Source: Paludisphaera borealis
Lineage (GTDB): Bacteria > Planctomycetota > Planctomycetia > Isosphaerales > Isosphaeraceae
NCBI RefSeq assembly: GCF_001956985.1
Contig: NZ_CP019082.1
Span: forward strand, 3,782,001 to 3,846,000
Length of the DNA: 64,000 nucleotides
Direction of reading: 5' to 3'
Position 1 is the first letter of the stretch; every line of letters begins with the position of its first letter. Positions 1,711 to 10,491 of the stretch are shown here, in pieces. A program made the position numbers and the translations under genes. The notes under the pieces were generated by a model, which saw only the letters and a program-made list of their open reading frames with translations, did not search any database and was not told where the DNA came from.

Positions 1711-2171
1711 CGCGAAAGCTCCTTAGAAGTTCGGCTGGCGTTGCCACGGACCTGCGACCAACCTTCCTTCCTCCATTGTCGCCAAGCGCCGGCGGTTTTC
1801 CACCCCCTTGCACCCCTGGACCCAATCGGTCGTCGGCAATTGAGACGGCGATCTTGAGTAAAAAGCTCCGCGGCCGCTTGTAAATTCTGGAAAACACCCA
1901 AGCTCTCACGAACCTCGCATTCGAGAATCACAACGCAATCCACTCATATTCACCATTCTCGCAAAGCTTCTCCCCCGGCTCAAATCCCACAGTCTTTCCA
2001 GTTCCTCCGCACGAACGGCCGATAAAGGTGAGGGGGAGAGTAGGGCGGCGCGAGGGGCGGTCTCACTCTACGTTGACGTTCTCGCGGGGATGAGCTATGG
2101 TTCCGGCGCTCGTTGATCCAGCTCGAGTCGACGACCGGGGTTGGTCCGCAGTCAGGGCAGGGAGGCCCACG
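1711..2171. other. Intergenic region upstream of msrA and kdsD
   Basis: This 461-base divergent gap holds the promoters of msrA (leftward) and the kdsD operon (rightward). An ATG at 2097 is in frame with kdsD, but the ATG at 2172 is better placed behind GGGAGG. I see no RNA gene and no convincing operator. Confidence 0.5.
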
Positions 2172-3194
2172 ATGGCGATGATCACGGATGCGTCTCCGGC
2201 CTCGGAGACCGAAGCCGAGGGACTGGCCTTCGCCCGCGAGGTGCTGCGGATCGAAGCCGAAGCGCTGACGCGGGTTCGGGAGCGGCTGAACGGGACGGTG
2301 GCGCGGGCGGCCGAGTTGATTCACGGCTGCGAGGGAAGCGTGATCGTCACCGGCATGGGCAAGGCGGGGCTGGTGGGCCAGAAGATGGCCGCGACGCTCG
2401 CCTCCACGGGCACCCGCGCGTTCCCGCTGCACCCGGCCGAGGCCGTCCACGGCGACCTGGGCCGGATCAGGGCCGACGACGTGGTAGTCGCCCTCTCGCA
2501 GAGCGGCGAGACCGAGGAGGTCTTGCGGCTGTTGCCGACCCTGCGACGGATCGGCGTCAACCTGGTGGCCGTGACCGAGCGGGGAGTCAGCTCGCTGGGA
2601 AGGGCCGCCGATCTGTGCATCGAGCTGGGGCCGATCGAGGAAGCTTGCCCGCTCGGCCTGGCGCCCTCGGCCAGCACGACGGTGATGATGGCGGTGGGCG
2701 ACGCCCTGGCCCTGTTGGTTTCACGGATGCGGGCGTTCTCGCCCGAGGATTTCGCGCTCTATCACCCTGCGGGCAACCTCGGACGCAAGCTGATGCGGGT
2801 CGAAGACGTGATGCGGACCGGCCGGCACATCCGCCGGGCGCGGGTCGATGAGACCGTCCGCGAGGTCTTCGTCCGCCTCGCCGGTCCGCGACGGCGGTCG
2901 GGGGCGGTGCTCGTCGAAGACGCCGAAAGCCGGCTCCTGGGGATCTTCACCGACAGCGATCTCGTCCGCCTGTTCGAGAAGCGTCGCGAAGGGGATCTCG
3001 ACCGGCCGATCGGCGCGGTGATGACGGCCGGCCCGTATCGCGTGGCGGTGGGCTCGCTGCTCGGCGACGCAGTCGAGCTGATGAAGGCCCATAAGATCAG
3101 CGAGCTGCCGGTGGTCGACTATTCCGACCGGCTGGCGGGCCTGATCGACGTCACCGACCTGATCGGCTTCACCGCCGCGGACTTCGAGGAATGA
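2172..3194 (+). CDS. kdsD: Arabinose-5-phosphate isomerase (KdsD/KpsF family)
   Basis: 340 residues from the ATG at 2172, chosen because GGGAGG lies about 7 bases upstream; an in-frame ATG at 2097 would add 25 residues of unremarkable sequence. The SIS domain (about 40-185) has the phosphosugar-binding motifs GMGKAG and SQSGET and the family signature HPAGNLGR; two CBS domains follow (about 215-275 and 285-335). The enzyme converts ribulose 5-phosphate to arabinose 5-phosphate, the first step of Kdo synthesis for lipopolysaccharide, in the cytoplasm. It overlaps kdsC by four bases (ATGA), so the two are very probably translationally coupled. Length and domain order match E. coli KdsD (about 328 residues). 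Confidence 0.95.
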   Translation: MAMITDASPASETEAEGLAFAREVLRIEAEALTRVRERLNGTVARAAELIHGCEGSVIVTGMGKAGLVGQKMAATLASTGTRAFPLHPAEAVHGDLGRIRADDVVVALSQSGETEEVLRLLPTLRRIGVNLVAVTERGVSSLGRAADLCIELGPIEEACPLGLAPSASTTVMMAVGDALALLVSRMRAFSPEDFALYHPAGNLGRKLMRVEDVMRTGRHIRRARVDETVREVFVRLAGPRRRSGAVLVEDAESRLLGIFTDSDLVRLFEKRREGDLDRPIGAVMTAGPYRVAVGSLLGDAVELMKAHKISELPVVDYSDRLAGLIDVTDLIGFTAADFEE

Positions 3195-3766
3195 GCCGAA
3201 TGTCGATCCCGGACCAGGAACCGGCCCCGATCTCAGCGGAACTCGCCGCGCGATGCGCGACGATCGAGCTGCTGGCGGTCGACGTCGACGGCGTTCTCAC
3301 CGACGGCTGCATCGTCGTCGACGATCACGGCGTCGAATCGAAACATTTTTACGTCCGCGACGGGCTCGGGTTCGCGCTCTGGCGCCGCGCCGGCAAGCGG
3401 TCGGCGATCGTCTCGGGACGATCGGCCGAGGTCGTGAACCGCCGGGCCGCCGAGCTGAAGATCGATCACGTCGCCCAGGGAATCAACGACAAGGCGTCGG
3501 CCTTGCGCGCGCTGCTGGTGGAATTCGGGCTCAACGCCTCGCAGGTCTGCTACGTCGGAGACGACCTGATCGATCTGCCGGCGCTGGGGGTCGTCGGTCT
3601 GGCCGCGTGCCCGGCCGACGCCGTCGCCGAGGTCCGCCGCGCGTCGCACCTCACAACCCGCTCAATCGGAGGAAGAGGCGTCGTCCGCGAGGTCGTCGAG
3701 GTGGTCATGAAGGCGCAAGGGCTCTGGCACGCCGCTTGCGAGGGGTATCGCGTCCCAGCGGTGTAA
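3191..3766 (+). CDS. kdsC: 3-deoxy-D-manno-octulosonate 8-phosphate phosphatase (KdsC family)
   Basis: 191 residues, a HAD-superfamily phosphatase of the small tetrameric KdsC type. The nucleophile motif DVDGVLTDG has Asp31 and the acid/base Asp33; further motifs are VSGRS (Thr/Ser motif II) and GDDLIDLP (motif IV metal ligands), and the protein has no cap domain. It removes phosphate from Kdo-8-phosphate, the third step of Kdo synthesis. It starts inside the last codons of kdsD (ATGA overlap) and is followed after 27 bases by the large LptC/LptA-like gene, so gene order parallels the E. coli kdsD-kdsC-lptC-lptA cluster. A second Met four codons in (3200) is a possible alternative start. Confidence 0.94.
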   Translation: MSRMSIPDQEPAPISAELAARCATIELLAVDVDGVLTDGCIVVDDHGVESKHFYVRDGLGFALWRRAGKRSAIVSGRSAEVVNRRAAELKIDHVAQGINDKASALRALLVEFGLNASQVCYVGDDLIDLPALGVVGLAACPADAVAEVRRASHLTTRSIGGRGVVREVVEVVMKAQGLWHAACEGYRVPAV

Positions 3767-3793: not shown

Positions 3794-6700
3794 ATGCGGA
3801 AGTTCATCCGTGCGCGATCGAGGTCGTCGCTCGATCGCCGGAACAGGAACTCGCCGACGTTACGGAATGGTTATTTCGTGTTCAAGACACTCTTCAAGCT
3901 CGTGACCGTGTTCGGCCTCTTGGTGGGGTTCTACCAGGGCTACGTCCGCGCGTTCGCGTTCGTGATCAACCGCCTCACCGCGGACCGGCACGTCGAACAG
4001 ACCCCCTTCGAATACCACGAGCCACTCTCCAAGCTCCAGTCGTACGAACTCGCCCGCCTCAACCTCGGCAAGGACCACTGGGCGACCAAGCGCGACGTCC
4101 CCACCCACTTCAACGCCGGGCGCGGGATCTACCTGTTCGCCGGCAGCATCGCCCCGCCCGAGGGGGAGGAAGGCGCCCGGACCGACGGCAAACAGTTGGT
4201 CCTCAAGCCGGTCGCCATCATCCTCAAGACGCAAGGCGGCAGCAGCACCAAGGTCATCACCAGCGACGAGGCCCGGCTCGACTTCAACAAGCGGCTCGGC
4301 TTCGACGCCAAGCCCGGCGCCGAACCCCTGATCATCAAGCACGCCCGGCTCGAGGGCAACGTGGTCATCCGCGACGACCGCGGCACGCCCAACGACTCCG
4401 CGGACGACATGGTCGTCTCGATGCCGTGGATCGAGTACGACGCCGACAAGCTTCAGGTCCAGACCGATTCCGGCATCCTGCTCGTCGACCGCGACATGAG
4501 AGTGACCGCCGTCGGCCTCGACATCTTGCTCCGGCCCAAGAGCGACCCCACCCGGCCGAGCGGCCGAGCGGCCACCGGTTTCGAGGGCGCCAAGAGCGCC
4601 GTCTTGCGCAAGAACGTCAACATCGTCTTTGGCGACGTCGGCAGCACGGGCGTGCTGCCGGGCGCGGCGAAGACCAAGAAGTCGGCCGACGGCAAGGTCG
4701 CCGCCGAGGTGAACGTCGACGCTCGGCTTGCTCAGAACAAGAAGCCGGCCGCCGACGAGGCCGTGCCGCTCAACATCCAGTGCGACGGGCCGATGCAGAT
4801 CGACCTGCCCAACCCGCCGTTGCCGGAGAAGGTCGGGCCGCCGCCGCCCCCCGCGCCGACGCTCGTCCGGTTCAACCGCAACGTCGTCGTCAAGCGCGGC
4901 AAGCTCACCGAGCTGCCCGACCAGCTCAACTGCGACACCCTCGACCTCACGCTGCTGCCGGGCGAGAAGCCCGCCGCGAAGCCCGAGGACGCCCAGCTCG
5001 CCAAGGCCCCGAAGCCCGAGAAGCCGGCCGCGCCGCAGGGTGCCGCCGTCGCCGGAGCCGGAGCGAACGGCGACGCCGAGGAGAAAAGCCTCTTCGGCGG
5101 CCTGGCGCTCCGGCGAGCCAAGGCCAGCGGCCACGCGGTCTGGCTCCAGATGCCGTCGCAGAACAACAAGATCCTCTGCATCGAGCTGATCCACAGCAAA
5201 GACCCGCTCACCGGCAAGAACACGACCCACTTGCTCGGCGGCAGCCGGCAGCTCATGTTCGTCAAGGAGGACGTCGCCCTGGACGGCCCCGACAAGGGCA
5301 AGGTTCAGTCGGTCACCCACGCCTGGTGCGCCGACGCGACCCTGATGGACGACGGCGACATGGACCGGGGCACCCTGGTGGCCAACGGCCCCGGCCGGGT
5401 GGAAATCCGCCCCACCCCCAAGCCGGGTGACGGTCCGCCGCGCGAGACTCCCCCCGCCCAGACGGCCGTCTGGCAGGATCAGCTCTGGCTCCAGAACGAG
5501 GTCGGCCCCGACGGCACGGTCGTCGGCAAGATCGTCGTCCTCAAGGGCATGCCGCGCGTCCAGGACCGGCTCCAGGGAGCCTCGCTCGACGCGGCCCAGA
5601 GCATCGTCGTCTGGCTCGACTCCAAGCCCTCGACGGCCCCCAAGACCGCCACGACCCTCGACTCGCGCGAGGTCGTCCCCGCCGCCTACACGGTCGCTGA
5701 CGCCGCATCGAAGTCGCCCGCGCCCGGCGGGGGCATGAACATCCGCCGGCTGCTGGCCGTCAAGGACGTCCACATGGTCGCCCCGTCGCAAGACCTCCGC
5801 GCCCGCGATCGGCTCGACGTCGACTTCGAACAGGCCAAGATCACGGCCACGCCCCCGACCCCGGCCCCGGCCTCGAATCCAGCGCCCGCTCCGGCCGCCG
5901 CGCCGGGCTCCGAAGTCCCGGCCCCAGCGCCGGCTCAGTCGGCGGCCCCCGCGCCGAAGCCGCTGGAGCCGCTGATGACCGCCCTGGCCGACCGCGTGCA
6001 GGCCAAGGTGATCGTCGGCGCCAAGCCCCCCGCGACGTCGGGCAAGGCCGCGTCCGCGTCGCCGATCCCCGGCGGATCGAACTCGAGCTACGAGATCCGC
6101 GACGTCGAGATGCGCGGCGGGGTCGTGCTCCATCAAGACCCCGCGCCGGACAAGAAGAAGGGGACCGACGCCTCCGGCGAGGTGCTGGTCCTCCGCAACG
6201 AAGCCTCGGGCAAGGCGGTCTTCGACCTGTATCATCACGACCCGTATTCGCCCAAGACCCAGAACGTCAAACCCGAGACCATGCCCCCAGCCCGCGTGAT
6301 CACTGAAGAGATGACCATCGAAGCCAACCTGATCGGCGTCAACCAGTCGACCAACAAGGCCTGGGCCTACGGGGCCGGCAAGCTCACCCAGCTTACCGAC
6401 CGCGGCCTCATGACCGACCGATCGCCCGACGCCCCGAATCAGGCCGACGCCCAAGCCGGCGACTCCAAGACGCTCGTCGTCGAGAAGACGAAGAAGCGGG
6501 CCGGCAAGGTGAAGGCCGAGAAGACGAAGATCACCATCACCTGGGCCGACAAGATGACCTTCGAGGGGGTCGCGGTCGATCCCTTGAACCGGCCCGCCGC
6601 CAAGGCCGTCTTCTACAAGAACGCCCGGGCCGAGATGGAAGATTCGGTGCTCTACGGCGGCGAATCGATCACCACCTACACTGACCAGCCGATCCCGCTG

Positions 6701-7816
6701 GCGGAGTTCGGCAAGCTGACCCAGAAGCCGAAGCCCGCGCCGACCGCCGCGAACGACGAGGATCTGCCGGCCGTCGAGGACGAGAAGCCCAAGCCCGACC
6801 TCGCGCTCCTCGAATGCAAGGGCAACGCCGTGGCGATCACCCGCAAGGTCGATCCCGACCGGCCGGTGCTCCTCAGCCTCCAGAAGCTCGCCGCCAACTC
6901 GCTGACTTACGACCGTCGCAGCGGCGGCTTCGTCGCGCCGGGGCCGGGCATGGTCTACCTCTACGACCGCAACAACAACGACCCGACCAAGTCGTCCAAG
7001 CCCTCGGCGGCCGTCAACGAAACCGCGACCTCGCGCCGGACCATTCAGCAGACATCCTTCCAGTCGGACGGCGACGACAAGATCGCCGTCCGCAACGGCG
7101 GCCCCGCGGCCGCCGCGGCTGGGCGCGCCGCCGATCCGAAGTCGCTGCTGCCGCCGCTGGTCCTGACGCAGATCAAGTTCAACAAGGAGATGCGCGGACG
7201 GTTCGGGACCGGCAAGCAGGACGACGTGACCGAGCAGCGGTGGGCCGAGTTCTTCGGCGGCGTCGAGACGGCCCGTTGCGAAGTCCCGAGCGTGCTGAAA
7301 GACGGCCTCAACTACGACCACCTGCCGGCGAACGCCTATTTCTTGACGTCGGAGACCCTCCGCGTCATCACCGAGCCGCCGCCGGCCGGGTCCGAGCGGA
7401 ACGCCCCGAGCCGCAACTTCCTGAAGGCGTGGGACAACGCCACCGTCGTCGCCAAGGACACCACGCTCCAGGCCGACGTCATCACCTACGACTCGCTCAA
7501 CGATCTGATCTACGCCAACGCCCTGGAGGGCCGCACCGTCCAGGCCGTCCAGCAAACCGGACTCGGCCAGCCGGGCTCGCCGCTCACCGCCAAGGCCGTG
7601 AGGATGAACCCCAAGACCGGCGCGGTCGACGTGGCCGACCCCGCGAACATCCAGTTGATCGACCACCACACCGGCGAACGTCCCAAGACGGTCAACATGT
7701 CCGATCCCGAACCCGGCACCAAAGCCGGCAAGCTCGCCAAACCCAAGGAACCCCGCAAGCCACCCAAGCGTCCCACCGTTAACCAGATCGAGAAAAAGGG
7801 CTTCACCGGACGCTGA
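3794..7816 (+). CDS. Very large membrane-anchored LptC/LptA(OstA)-like protein, probable LPS-transport component
   Basis: 1340 residues from the ATG at 3794. A GTG at 3878, just before VFKTLFKLVTVFGLL, would give a more usual N-terminal membrane anchor, so the first 28 Arg-rich residues may not be translated. One transmembrane helix (about 30-55) is followed by a long extracytoplasmic part. Segments such as IIKHARLEGNVVIRDD (about 180-200), VEMRGGVVLHQDP (about 770) and a late block with MTFEGVAV, NARAEMEDSVLYGG and ITTYTD (about 915-970) resemble the repeated 'gnV.v...A..m.Y' strands of LptA/LptC beta-jellyrolls. A Pro/Ala-rich linker lies near 685-725. Position directly after kdsD-kdsC supports a role in carrying LPS across the periplasm. 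Normal LptC and LptA are about 190 residues, so this would be a planctomycete-scale version; lptB is not adjacent. Similarity was judged by eye only. Confidence 0.7.
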   Translation: MRKFIRARSRSSLDRRNRNSPTLRNGYFVFKTLFKLVTVFGLLVGFYQGYVRAFAFVINRLTADRHVEQTPFEYHEPLSKLQSYELARLNLGKDHWATKRDVPTHFNAGRGIYLFAGSIAPPEGEEGARTDGKQLVLKPVAIILKTQGGSSTKVITSDEARLDFNKRLGFDAKPGAEPLIIKHARLEGNVVIRDDRGTPNDSADDMVVSMPWIEYDADKLQVQTDSGILLVDRDMRVTAVGLDILLRPKSDPTRPSGRAATGFEGAKSAVLRKNVNIVFGDVGSTGVLPGAAKTKKSADGKVAAEVNVDARLAQNKKPAADEAVPLNIQCDGPMQIDLPNPPLPEKVGPPPPPAPTLVRFNRNVVVKRGKLTELPDQLNCDTLDLTLLPGEKPAAKPEDAQLAKAPKPEKPAAPQGAAVAGAGANGDAEEKSLFGGLALRRAKASGHAVWLQMPSQNNKILCIELIHSKDPLTGKNTTHLLGGSRQLMFVKEDVALDGPDKGKVQSVTHAWCADATLMDDGDMDRGTLVANGPGRVEIRPTPKPGDGPPRETPPAQTAVWQDQLWLQNEVGPDGTVVGKIVVLKGMPRVQDRLQGASLDAAQSIVVWLDSKPSTAPKTATTLDSREVVPAAYTVADAASKSPAPGGGMNIRRLLAVKDVHMVAPSQDLRARDRLDVDFEQAKITATPPTPAPASNPAPAPAAAPGSEVPAPAPAQSAAPAPKPLEPLMTALADRVQAKVIVGAKPPATSGKAASASPIPGGSNSSYEIRDVEMRGGVVLHQDPAPDKKKGTDASGEVLVLRNEASGKAVFDLYHHDPYSPKTQNVKPETMPPARVITEEMTIEANLIGVNQSTNKAWAYGAGKLTQLTDRGLMTDRSPDAPNQADAQAGDSKTLVVEKTKKRAGKVKAEKTKITITWADKMTFEGVAVDPLNRPAAKAVFYKNARAEMEDSVLYGGESITTYTDQPIPLAEFGKLTQKPKPAPTAANDEDLPAVEDEKPKPDLALLECKGNAVAITRKVDPDRPVLLSLQKLAANSLTYDRRSGGFVAPGPGMVYLYDRNNNDPTKSSKPSAAVNETATSRRTIQQTSFQSDGDDKIAVRNGGPAAAAAGRAADPKSLLPPLVLTQIKFNKEMRGRFGTGKQDDVTEQRWAEFFGGVETARCEVPSVLKDGLNYDHLPANAYFLTSETLRVITEPPPAGSERNAPSRNFLKAWDNATVVAKDTTLQADVITYDSLNDLIYANALEGRTVQAVQQTGLGQPGSPLTAKAVRMNPKTGAVDVADPANIQLIDHHTGERPKTVNMSDPEPGTKAGKLAKPKEPRKPPKRPTVNQIEKKGFTGR

Positions 7817-7865: not shown

Positions 7866-8996
7866 TCAGTACACCTCGCCCGGCGCGGCGGGGCCGTGGG
7901 ACGAGGGGAGGGCGGGGGAGCCGCCGGCGAGTCGGGGGTAGCGGTAGTGCCAGCCTTCGACAGCGCGGACGGTGTTCAGGTCGTCGCGGGTCAGGCCGTA
8001 GCGGCCGAACCAGGGGGTGCCGAGCGACCGCACCAGGGCGTCGACCTCGGCGATCCGCTGGCGGCCGGTCGTGACGGCGAACTCGGTCCGCGACGGGCCG
8101 TCGGGCTGAAGGAAGTACTCCTTCCAGAACGCCCGGCCGCCGAGAATCCCCGCGGCGCCGGCGCGCAGGGCCATCTCGACCTGCACGAGATAGGCCGCGT
8201 AGTCGACGCCCGCCGACAGCAGCACCCAGGGCCGCTCGCTGACGGCGTCGAGGGCCTGGAGGTTGTTTTCAAGCTGGTCGTCGCTCTCACGGTCGAGCGT
8301 GCCGGGGAACTCGGCCTTGTAGACGTCGCAGAACCGGCTGAGCTGGCGGGCCGTCTCGATCACGGTCTCGGCCTTGCGCTCGAGGAACGAGGCGTCGGTC
8401 TTGGCCTCGCCGCCGAACGGGAACGCCACGGCTTCCAGCAGCAAGAGCACGTCGTGCCGCTTGCACTCCTCGTACACCTGCTCGACCAGCGCGAGATTCG
8501 CCTCGGCCGAGTGCGGCTCGGTCGGTTCGAACTGGGCGAGCAGCTTGACGGCGTCGGCCCCCATCAGCTTGATCTTCTCGACGCCCCAGCCGGGCTCGAC
8601 CGCCGCCAATGGAGCGCCCAGCTTGCTCTTGTTGTAGGCTGACTTTTCGAGCCGGACGAGCAGCCCCTTGTGCGGCGGGATCGCCTCCGAGGCCACCGCC
8701 GACCACGCGCCGTAGTACGGGTCGATCAGGACGCCCGAGACGACCGGGGCGAGCGACCGCATCAGGTCGAGCTTGATCTCGACGACTTCCTCGTAGGTCG
8801 GCTGCCGATCTTCGCCGGCCGTCTTGAGGGCCTTGGCCGCCATGTCGACCACCGAGTTGTTCTGGTCGAGGGCCAGGATCGTGAGCGTGCCGTCGGGGTT
8901 GCTGATCCGCTGCAAGCCCCGCAGCTTGCCCGGCGTCAGCCCCTTGCTCAACAACGTCGTGGCGCTCAGCTTCCGCGATTGATCCCCGAACGACAT
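7866..8996 (-). CDS. Tagatose-1,6-bisphosphate aldolase-like protein (LacD family)
   Basis: 376 residues from the ATG at 8996, chosen because AAGG sits about 8 bases upstream; an earlier in-frame ATG at 9044 adds only a polar 16-residue tail. The fold is a class I TIM-barrel aldolase: LTILALDQNNSV near residue 40, SGVLIDPYYG on the next strand, and CDVYKAEFPG near residue 235, whose Lys is the candidate Schiff-base residue. LacD enzymes split tagatose 1,6-bisphosphate into dihydroxyacetone phosphate and glyceraldehyde 3-phosphate. The C-terminus carries an extra Pro/Gly-rich tail of about 25 residues. It is divergent from a second class I aldolase (FbaB), which suggests linked central sugar-phosphate metabolism. 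The true substrate is unproven. Confidence 0.83.
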   Translation of the reverse strand: MSFGDQSRKLSATTLLSKGLTPGKLRGLQRISNPDGTLTILALDQNNSVVDMAAKALKTAGEDRQPTYEEVVEIKLDLMRSLAPVVSGVLIDPYYGAWSAVASEAIPPHKGLLVRLEKSAYNKSKLGAPLAAVEPGWGVEKIKLMGADAVKLLAQFEPTEPHSAEANLALVEQVYEECKRHDVLLLLEAVAFPFGGEAKTDASFLERKAETVIETARQLSRFCDVYKAEFPGTLDRESDDQLENNLQALDAVSERPWVLLSAGVDYAAYLVQVEMALRAGAAGILGGRAFWKEYFLQPDGPSRTEFAVTTGRQRIAEVDALVRSLGTPWFGRYGLTRDDLNTVRAVEGWHYRYPRLAGGSPALPSSHGPAAPGEVY

Positions 8997-9426
8997 GGCC
9001 GACCTTCTTCTCTGTCTGGACGCGTTCTCATTCCCACTGCACAACGCCGCGAGCGTATTCTAGACCGTTGCGCCAGCCTGGCACCAGCCCACCGGGACGC
9101 ACAGGCCGGATCGGCCGGATCGATAAACCAAACCGCTCATTGCGTCGGGGGGCGTCCGACTCTATGATGGGTGGCCTGGCCCGAATGTTTCCGGTGATCC
9201 CGATTCGGGACGGCCGGATTCCGGCCAGCGTGCTCGAAACACGAGGGATTGCGAGCACACCCTTACTTTCGCACCCGGGCCCGCTCGACTGGGGCCGGAG
9301 TCCGGGGCGCGACGGCTTCCGCCCGTCGCATTCGCATCTCATTTCCATCGTACGCGGACCGGCCGTCGGCGTCCGCCCCCAGAGAGGGACCGCCACAGGC
9401 CGCCGCGGATCGGAGAGTCTCCTGAC
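8997..9426. other. Divergent intergenic region between two aldolase genes
   Basis: About 430 bases with promoters firing both ways. No conserved hairpin, RNA gene or riboswitch was recognised. GGAG lies about 10 bases upstream of the fbaB start. Confidence 0.4.

Positions 9427-10491
<1,065 letters not shown>

Follow-up and report, generated by a model that had tools for sequence, protein, structure and literature searches.

In Escherichia coli, lipopolysaccharide is carried between the two membranes on the Lpt bridge, whose periplasmic part is built from LptC, a single β-jellyroll behind an N-terminal membrane helix, and from LptA, a small, soluble and polymerising protein with a precursor of 185 residues; how many LptA units take part depends on assembly and is difficult to determine. 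Here, we analyzed a 64,000-nucleotide stretch of the Paludisphaera borealis genome (Isosphaeraceae, Planctomycetia; contig NZ_CP019082.1, positions 3,782,001 to 3,846,000), referred to as the window, in which a gene at positions 3794–7816 encodes a protein of 1340 residues, termed the giant, directly behind the Kdo genes kdsD and kdsC. We consider, with a probability of about 80%, that the giant is the periplasmic LptC–LptA part of the Lpt bridge in a single chain. This function as a lipopolysaccharide bridge is predicted, and we infer how the carboxy-terminal half is folded, that the groove is continuous, that the chain docks at either end and what the cargo is.

The giant resembles several described systems in part. 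With LptA (PF03968) it shares the jellyroll where it could be modelled, the profile matches of its orthologues and the position behind kdsC, whereas its 1340 residues, about seven LptA lengths joined by Pro/Ala linkers into one anchored chain, set it apart from a small soluble protein with a cleaved signal peptide. With LptC (PF06835) it has in common a jellyroll behind a probable N-terminal membrane helix as well as the place after kdsC, seen for a plain LptC in another planctomycete class (locus L109), but LptC comprises one jellyroll and the giant many further repeats. The N-terminal domain of LptD is its best structural match, yet the giant lacks a match to the LptD barrel family (PF04453) and LptD is encoded separately in a 1349-residue frame. 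TamB/YhdP and the eukaryotic bridge proteins VPS13 and LPD-3/BLTP1 are alike in principle, forming a very long single-chain β-groove between two membranes, whereas their repeat family probably differs.

A genome survey, in the part available, terms the planctomycete Lpt system "largely reduced" (PMC8871954), and a study that argued for an asymmetric outer membrane in these bacteria worked with LptD and BamA, its main text being without LptA or LptC (PMC3422733). The available part of a work on eukaryotic bridges does not use the term Lpt (PMC7613979). In the literature searched, which was mostly open-access and from which absence from print does not follow, we found no fused or multi-unit planctomycete LptA. 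The Lpt bridge is an established principle, and the proteins described here are homologues of its known parts; new is their form as a single giant chain.

Results

The position of the gene rests on its two upstream neighbours, whose products scored 264.6 bits against the NCBIfam model TIGR00393 (kdsD; cut-off 203.7) and 142.8 bits against TIGR01670 (kdsC; cut-off 106.95), respectively. The KdsD and KdsC equivalog models came top by E-value (5.9e-87 and 2.4e-45), yet remained under their own cut-offs. The giant gene directly after this pair takes the position expected of LptC, and these coordinates and matches agree with the sequence-only reading, which had described a 1340-residue open reading frame (ORF) directly after kdsD–kdsC. 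Intact same-family homologues of 1182–1539 amino acids occupy the same slot, and codon-position divergence showed its minimum at position 2 and its maximum at position 3 in four of four comparisons, with modest margins; the ORF is therefore not a chance frame in G+C-rich DNA, and these comparisons confirm it as a real gene. An antisense ORF of 1269 amino acids (window 3860–7669, minus strand) overlies it. As both the codon-position divergence and the relatives back the plus strand, the antisense frame is disfavoured and is taken as a presumable by-product of G+C-rich coding sequence.

Homologues of a 231-residue piece of the giant were present in 15 of 21 genomes, its own included. The first family alignment, from which profile A1 derives, comprised 13 sequences, the giant and 12 relatives of full or nearly full length with 22–53% identity to it over the alignment. 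The P. borealis genome (7,651,896 bases, three contigs, the largest of 7,497,544) holds no second copy, the sole match of the homologue search at E up to 10 being the giant itself.

Family membership was indicated by orthologues from the same class (loci and genomes are given as L and G numbers). Against PF03968 (LptA/LptD_N; curated cut-off 20.4 bits, compared with 21 bits for PF06835), the best score was obtained for L030 (51.5 bits, E 1.4e-13, residues 834–934), followed by L057 (46.2 bits, E 6.2e-12, residues 704–791), L056 (36.1 bits, E 8.3e-9, residues 266–377) and L058 (30.8 bits, E 3.6e-7, residues 301–403), the latter two with two matching stretches each. L083 (30.2 bits, E 5.6e-7), L024 (22.3 bits, residues 1033–1128 of 1186, near the carboxy-terminal end) and L082 (20.7 bits, E 5e-4) also exceeded the cut-off, and in the remaining scanned class members the match was below it or absent: L079 showed one match under the cut-off, L078, L080 and L081 showed none at 0.01, and L040 none at 0.5. 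Of the 13 sequences in the first family alignment, searched at E up to 1, three matched PF03968 (best 1.6e-4) and three PF06835 (best 4.4e-4); the PF06835 matches of Planctomycetia giants were all under cut-off. Profile A1 detected L030 at 1.9e-126, L057 at 4.5e-78, L056 at 1.5e-77 and L058 at 1.3e-45, and its scores for L030 and L057 therefore tie the giant to these PF03968-matching orthologues.

We analyzed the structure with an AlphaFold model of residues 105–1304 based on six sequences. Much of residues 205–584 was predicted at a local distance difference test score (pLDDT) of about 70–90 and consisted nearly entirely of strands, whereas confidence was low at residues 723–872, with block means of about 27–62. 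Comparison with known structures by VIA-align returned Lpt chains in the top 19 rows, 18 of them by title and one, 4q35, whose title gives only a membrane protein and which we take to be an Lpt chain. For residues 203–528, the N. gonorrhoeae LptD yielded the best structural match (Z 13.2; 162 residues, 3.5 Å), alongside LptA (Z 10.7; 126 residues, 3.0 Å) and LptC (Z 9.9; 119 residues, 2.9 Å), the first unrelated row having a Z of 8.8. A further stretch, residues 723–860, matched LptA with a Z of 7.8 (88 residues, 2.2 Å), a level that the tool rates as not decisive alone. Foldseek placed LptDE at the top by E-value and gave E. coli LptA a probability of 1.00. By computation, residues 203–528 are shown as a predicted LptD_N/LptA/LptC-like β-jellyroll. 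Of the continuous jellyroll series along the whole chain that the sequence-only reading had named as a test, this part matched an LptD_N fold, its first portion also matching LptA and LptC, and the remainder of the series was not shown by the model. The strand motifs EGNVVI and AEMEDSVLYGG pointed out in that reading are present in the translation.

To detect internal repeats, 110-column segments of the family alignment were compared pairwise by hhalign, giving 171 non-overlapping pairs. Probabilities of at least 20% were obtained for 26 of these, at least 50% for 18, at least 80% for nine and at least 90% for two, where the pairs are not independent because adjoining segments share half of their columns; those at or above 50% fall within residues ~142 to ~1305. 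No pair reached 20% in either the column-shuffled control (0/171, best 1.1) or the reversed control (0/171, best 17.7). Based on this self-comparison, the repeat-like character ascribed to the protein earlier holds against both controls, and most of the giant is made up, as far as its sequence profile tells, of successive diverged β-repeats of a single kind, with a portion of them predicted to adopt the Lpt jellyroll fold.

The giant contains one hydrophobic stretch, residues 27–46, as judged by hydropathy only, in line with the N-terminal anchoring proposed before. Residues Y50 and F54 are invariant across the 13-sequence alignment, and no obvious signal-peptide cleavage motif was seen by eye at the segment, which is probably an LptC-like inner-membrane anchor. 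The translation start is uncertain, as four relatives start at a codon matching residue 29. In the hydropathy profiles of 26 giants and long ORFs, L020, L021, L022 and L027, four of the first 16 class giants, had no segment above threshold, L029 had an extra weak one, and the rest had a segment at the amino-terminal end only. At the opposite end, a basic Pro-rich linker precedes an ERKGFTG-like peptide (window 7754–7813, residues ~1321–1340), which is conserved in most of the aligned Isosphaeraceae giants and was not seen in the five aligned members from other families; it could be a docking element.

We also searched the P. borealis genome for the remaining Lpt parts, namely LptF/LptG, LptD, LptA and LptC. 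Matches to LptF/LptG were grouped at C1:1595881-1598326, and this family was found above cut-off in 21 of 21 genomes. PF04453 did not find the P. borealis LptD and matched in five of the 21 genomes, two of them above cut-off; the gene lies at C1:5914803-5916083 in a 1349-residue frame, with 61% identity over 419 residues to a same-family LptD. For LptC, PF06835 gave no match at 0.1 in the P. borealis genome; across the 21 genomes it matched twice, each time in a giant and under the cut-off. For LptA, PF03968 likewise gave no match at 0.1; one at E 0.49 lay inside an aconitase/LeuC-type gene and was rejected. Across the 21 genomes PF03968 matched at 12 places in nine genomes, seven in giants and four in LptD-type ORFs. 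The twelfth place (G014:C96, 16.8 bits, below cut-off) is outside the giants and LptD genes. A separate LptA or LptC thus appears undetected by PF03968 and PF06835 in the P. borealis genome, which leaves it with no standard lptA or lptC by these searches.

Within Planctomycetia, the giant adjoins kdsD in all 24 genomes whose neighbourhood was read (P. borealis, G001–G020, G087, G105 and G123; six families), with intact giants of 988–1539 residues. The arrangement behind kdsD is therefore class-wide. In 19 of the 24, kdsC stands between kdsD and the giant, and the five without it (L056, L078, L081, L082 and L083) all belong to family f2. In these five and in L040, the stretch read contained no kdsC, and the giant comes immediately after kdsD. 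The copy of the same-genus genome G002 (L019:3467-7362, minus strand) is split into two overlapping ORFs, by either an assembly frameshift or a real change, and the copy of L026 runs beyond the contig end. Five loci from named genomes partly repeat the 24: four have kdsD adjoining, L040 among them without kdsC, and L043 was too short.

To cover the other planctomycete classes, 36 genomes were searched including six class members; kdsD was found in 26 of the 30 other-class genomes and 28 loci were read. An ORF of at least 850 residues follows kdsC in 11 of the 28 (L086, L088, L091, L093, L096, L097, L101, L102, L106, L108 and L111). LptA or LptC profiles matched above cut-off in L091, L102 and L108 (PF06835: 46.3 bits for L108 and 21.5 bits for L091) and below it in L101 and L088. 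L096 and L106 were matched by the class profile alone (1.6e-5 and 2.3e-4), and L086, L093, L097 and L111 showed no Lpt family match in Pfam, being counted because of their position, lptD beside or in them, or a weak profile link.

Four further loci carry a short gene instead. L109 contains a plain LptC of 174 residues after kdsC (PF06835, 3.7e-22). L098 encodes 330 residues behind kdsD (L098:8645-9637, minus strand; LptC 2e-7, LptD_N 0.0017 under cut-off), the size of a two-unit LptC–LptA fusion and possibly an evolutionary intermediate. L099 carries a 301-residue LptA (3.4e-14) about 700 bases past kdsD, followed by an ABC ATPase taken as LptB, and L092 encodes 447 residues with no Pfam match. 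Thirteen loci stood outside both counts (L084, L085, L087, L089, L090, L094, L095, L100, L103, L104, L105, L107 and L110), some of which end with the contig. Two of them, L084:2373-5384 and L100:1511-5875 (both minus strand), have kdsD followed by ORFs of 1003 and 1454 residues, respectively, that may be chance frames.

Linkage to lptD was assessed with a profile built from class LptD proteins and with an enlarged version that adds the five LptD ORFs named next. An ORF matching the LptD profile lies directly after the long ORF in five of the 28 loci (L086, L088, L097, L101 and L106; E 6.9e-79 to 1.9e-48), and that of L106 was also matched by PF04453. In L111, a single 1604-residue frame without N bases (L111:2793-7607, plus strand) starts at the kdsC end, has a hydrophobic segment at residues 14–32 and matches LptD at residues 831–1376 and 1468–1590, with E-values of 4.4e-15 for the first and 1.6e-58 for the enlarged profile. 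No further hydrophobic segment, as expected for an internal signal peptide, was seen in the hydropathy profile, whereas seven of eight separate LptD ORFs carry such a segment near the amino-terminal end, and the base composition by codon position was roughly steady along the frame. Since Pfam matched neither half of L111 to an Lpt family, the evidence for the fusion comes from the LptD profile and from the position of the frame; the first 830 residues lack any Lpt match, and we infer their LptC–LptA nature. L111 is possibly a natural fusion reaching from an inner-membrane anchor to an outer-membrane barrel.

The features of the window are collected in Table 1. The two aldolase genes downstream (window 7866–10491) also adjoin the giant in L018, L039, L041 and L042.

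Table 1 Features of the giant gene and its surroundings, in window positions.
Feature	Position	Strand	Basis
Giant protein, predicted LptC/LptA superfamily	3794..7816	+	1340 aa, ATG start; ORF, orthologues with Pfam matches, internal repeats
Single N-terminal hydrophobic segment, residues 27-54	3872..3955	+	hydropathy (27-46); Y50, F54 invariant
Predicted β-jellyroll, residues 203-528	4400..5377	+	AlphaFold model residues 99-424; LptD_N match; ~203-459 also LptA, LptC
Ala/Pro-rich linker, residues 395-435	4976..5098	+	composition; alignment gaps, length varies among relatives
Pro/Ala-rich linker, residues 684-725	5843..5968	+	composition
Second LptA-matching stretch, residues 723-872	5960..6409	+	VIA-align Z 7.8, 7.7 (model residues 619-756, 619-768)
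Candidate C-terminal OstA/LptA-type repeat, residues ~1206-1284	7409..7645	+	profile A1 vs PDB, 8onu_A E 0.025; L024 PF03968 match
kdsD, arabinose-5-phosphate isomerase (SIS and two CBS stretches), opens Kdo unit	2097..3194	+	TIGR00393; Pfam SIS, CBS
kdsC, Kdo-8-phosphate phosphatase	3191..3766	+	TIGR01670; 4-base overlap with kdsD end
DeoC/LacD-type aldolase gene, convergent, outside the system	7866..9044	-	Pfam DeoC 9.1e-19; kept in several relatives
Class I fructose-bisphosphate aldolase gene	9427-10491	+	Pfam/NCBIfam scans of window proteins

Discussion

The fold of residues 203–528, the PF03968 matches of the orthologues and the lack of a standard lptA or lptC in these searches support the long LptC/LptA-type bridge first suggested from the sequence. 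We propose that the N-terminal helix would hold the giant in the inner membrane beside LptB2FG, as for LptC, and that LptB2FG would lift lipopolysaccharide out of this membrane and load it onto the anchored jellyroll at the start of the chain. The diverged LptA-type repeats with their Pro/Ala linkers would then carry it along one continuous hydrophobic groove, and the carboxy-terminal repeat would deliver it to LptD, whose N-terminal jellyroll would take it up. The order of transport steps is that of the E. coli Lpt machine. The giant would stand in for LptC and several LptA copies, and the gene, rather than polymerisation, would therefore determine how long the bridge is. The sequence-only reading had suggested that the long chain may bridge a wide planctomycete periplasm, which the repeat count does not need, since about seven LptA lengths roughly equal the E. 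coli span of LptC, a few LptA and the LptD N-domain.

Several results weigh against this assignment. The giant itself has no Pfam match (0 families at E up to 10), PF03968, PF06835 and PF04453 included, and no NCBIfam match, and the best match of profile A1 among PDB sequences, LptA 8onu_A, was weak (E 0.025). With hhalign, for which unrelated controls gave 0.1–0.2%, the class profile reached 1.6%, 2.2% and 0.3% with the same-phylum short LptA/LptC of L099, L109 and L098, respectively, so that direct homology to these was not found by this comparison, and 0.4 and 0.5% with two LptD proteins. Among nine other-class long ORFs only L108 was clearly linked (93.8%), with L102 at 55, L097 at 36 and L096 at 31%, and the other five at or below 4.2%. 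The model of residues 105–1304 had a mean pLDDT of 45.4 (33–37 for the other four models), and one of residues 645–1304, also from six sequences, was poor (pLDDT 38.9, predicted template modelling score 0.27); because of this poor model, the assignment of the carboxy-terminal half rests on sequence profiles. Several top VIA-align rows were long and poor superpositions, such as the LptD rows 8h1s (14.5 Å) and 9rpr (17.9 Å), and Foldseek gave no match at E 0.001 and ranked unrelated DDB1 structures of low probability second to fourth. A very diverged separate LptA could have escaped detection, because PF03968 misses the giant itself. Finally, a phylum search with a profile of residues 325–565 matched five of 119 genomes, which is not a census, because it missed the giant-bearing genomes G013, G105 and G123.

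A different reading keeps the giant in the LptA/LptC fold superfamily and makes it, like TamB or YhdP, a long bridge for other lipids, either phospholipids or a glycolipid other than lipopolysaccharide. The length and one-piece design do recall bridge-like lipid transfer proteins, and Foldseek returned an LPD-3 complex at a probability of 0.63, though with a template modelling (TM) score of 0.15. We regard other cargo as unlikely, given that the giant adjoins kdsD in all 24 class genomes read, with lptD next or fused in six of 28 other-class loci, short LptC/LptA genes behind kdsD in three loci and no further LptA or LptC detected in the genome. The protein might also be an oversized LptC, whose N-terminal jellyroll docks LptB2FG, with a separate diverged LptA forming the bridge and the tail doing something else; the insensitivity of PF06835 and PF03968 in this clade, where they miss the giant and could miss such an LptA, and the lack of a confident model for the carboxy-terminal half speak for it. 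This appears less probable again, as the PF03968 matches of orthologues are spread over both the carboxy-terminal third (L030, L057 and L024) and the first half (L056 and L058), the repeats extend to residue ~1305 and the sole homologue of the giant in its own genome at E up to 10 is itself. That an unrelated envelope or surface β-repeat protein came to lie behind kdsC by chance, as the missing direct family match and the general abundance of large repeat proteins in planctomycetes might suggest, is highly improbable in view of orthologues in four class families with PF03968 E-values of 1.4e-13 to 3.6e-7, the Lpt chains in the top 19 VIA-align rows and the slot kept in 24 of 24 genomes.

If the giant is the single-chain bridge that we favour, a wider and more tentative proposal is that Planctomycetota may have swapped the assembled LptC–LptA bridge for a single chain fixed by the gene, the length of which possibly acts as a ruler of the membrane gap, and that L111 would be a 1604-residue LptC–LptA–LptD fusion rooted in both membranes.

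If the giant fills the place of LptC and LptA, the missing Lpt parts of planctomycetes would be explained. A single chain would have a fixed number of repeats that can be shortened or lengthened genetically, offering a natural test of whether transport needs continuous contact along the bridge. Because the phylum contains forms from a short LptC up to long fusions, it may become possible to trace how the bridge evolved step by step.

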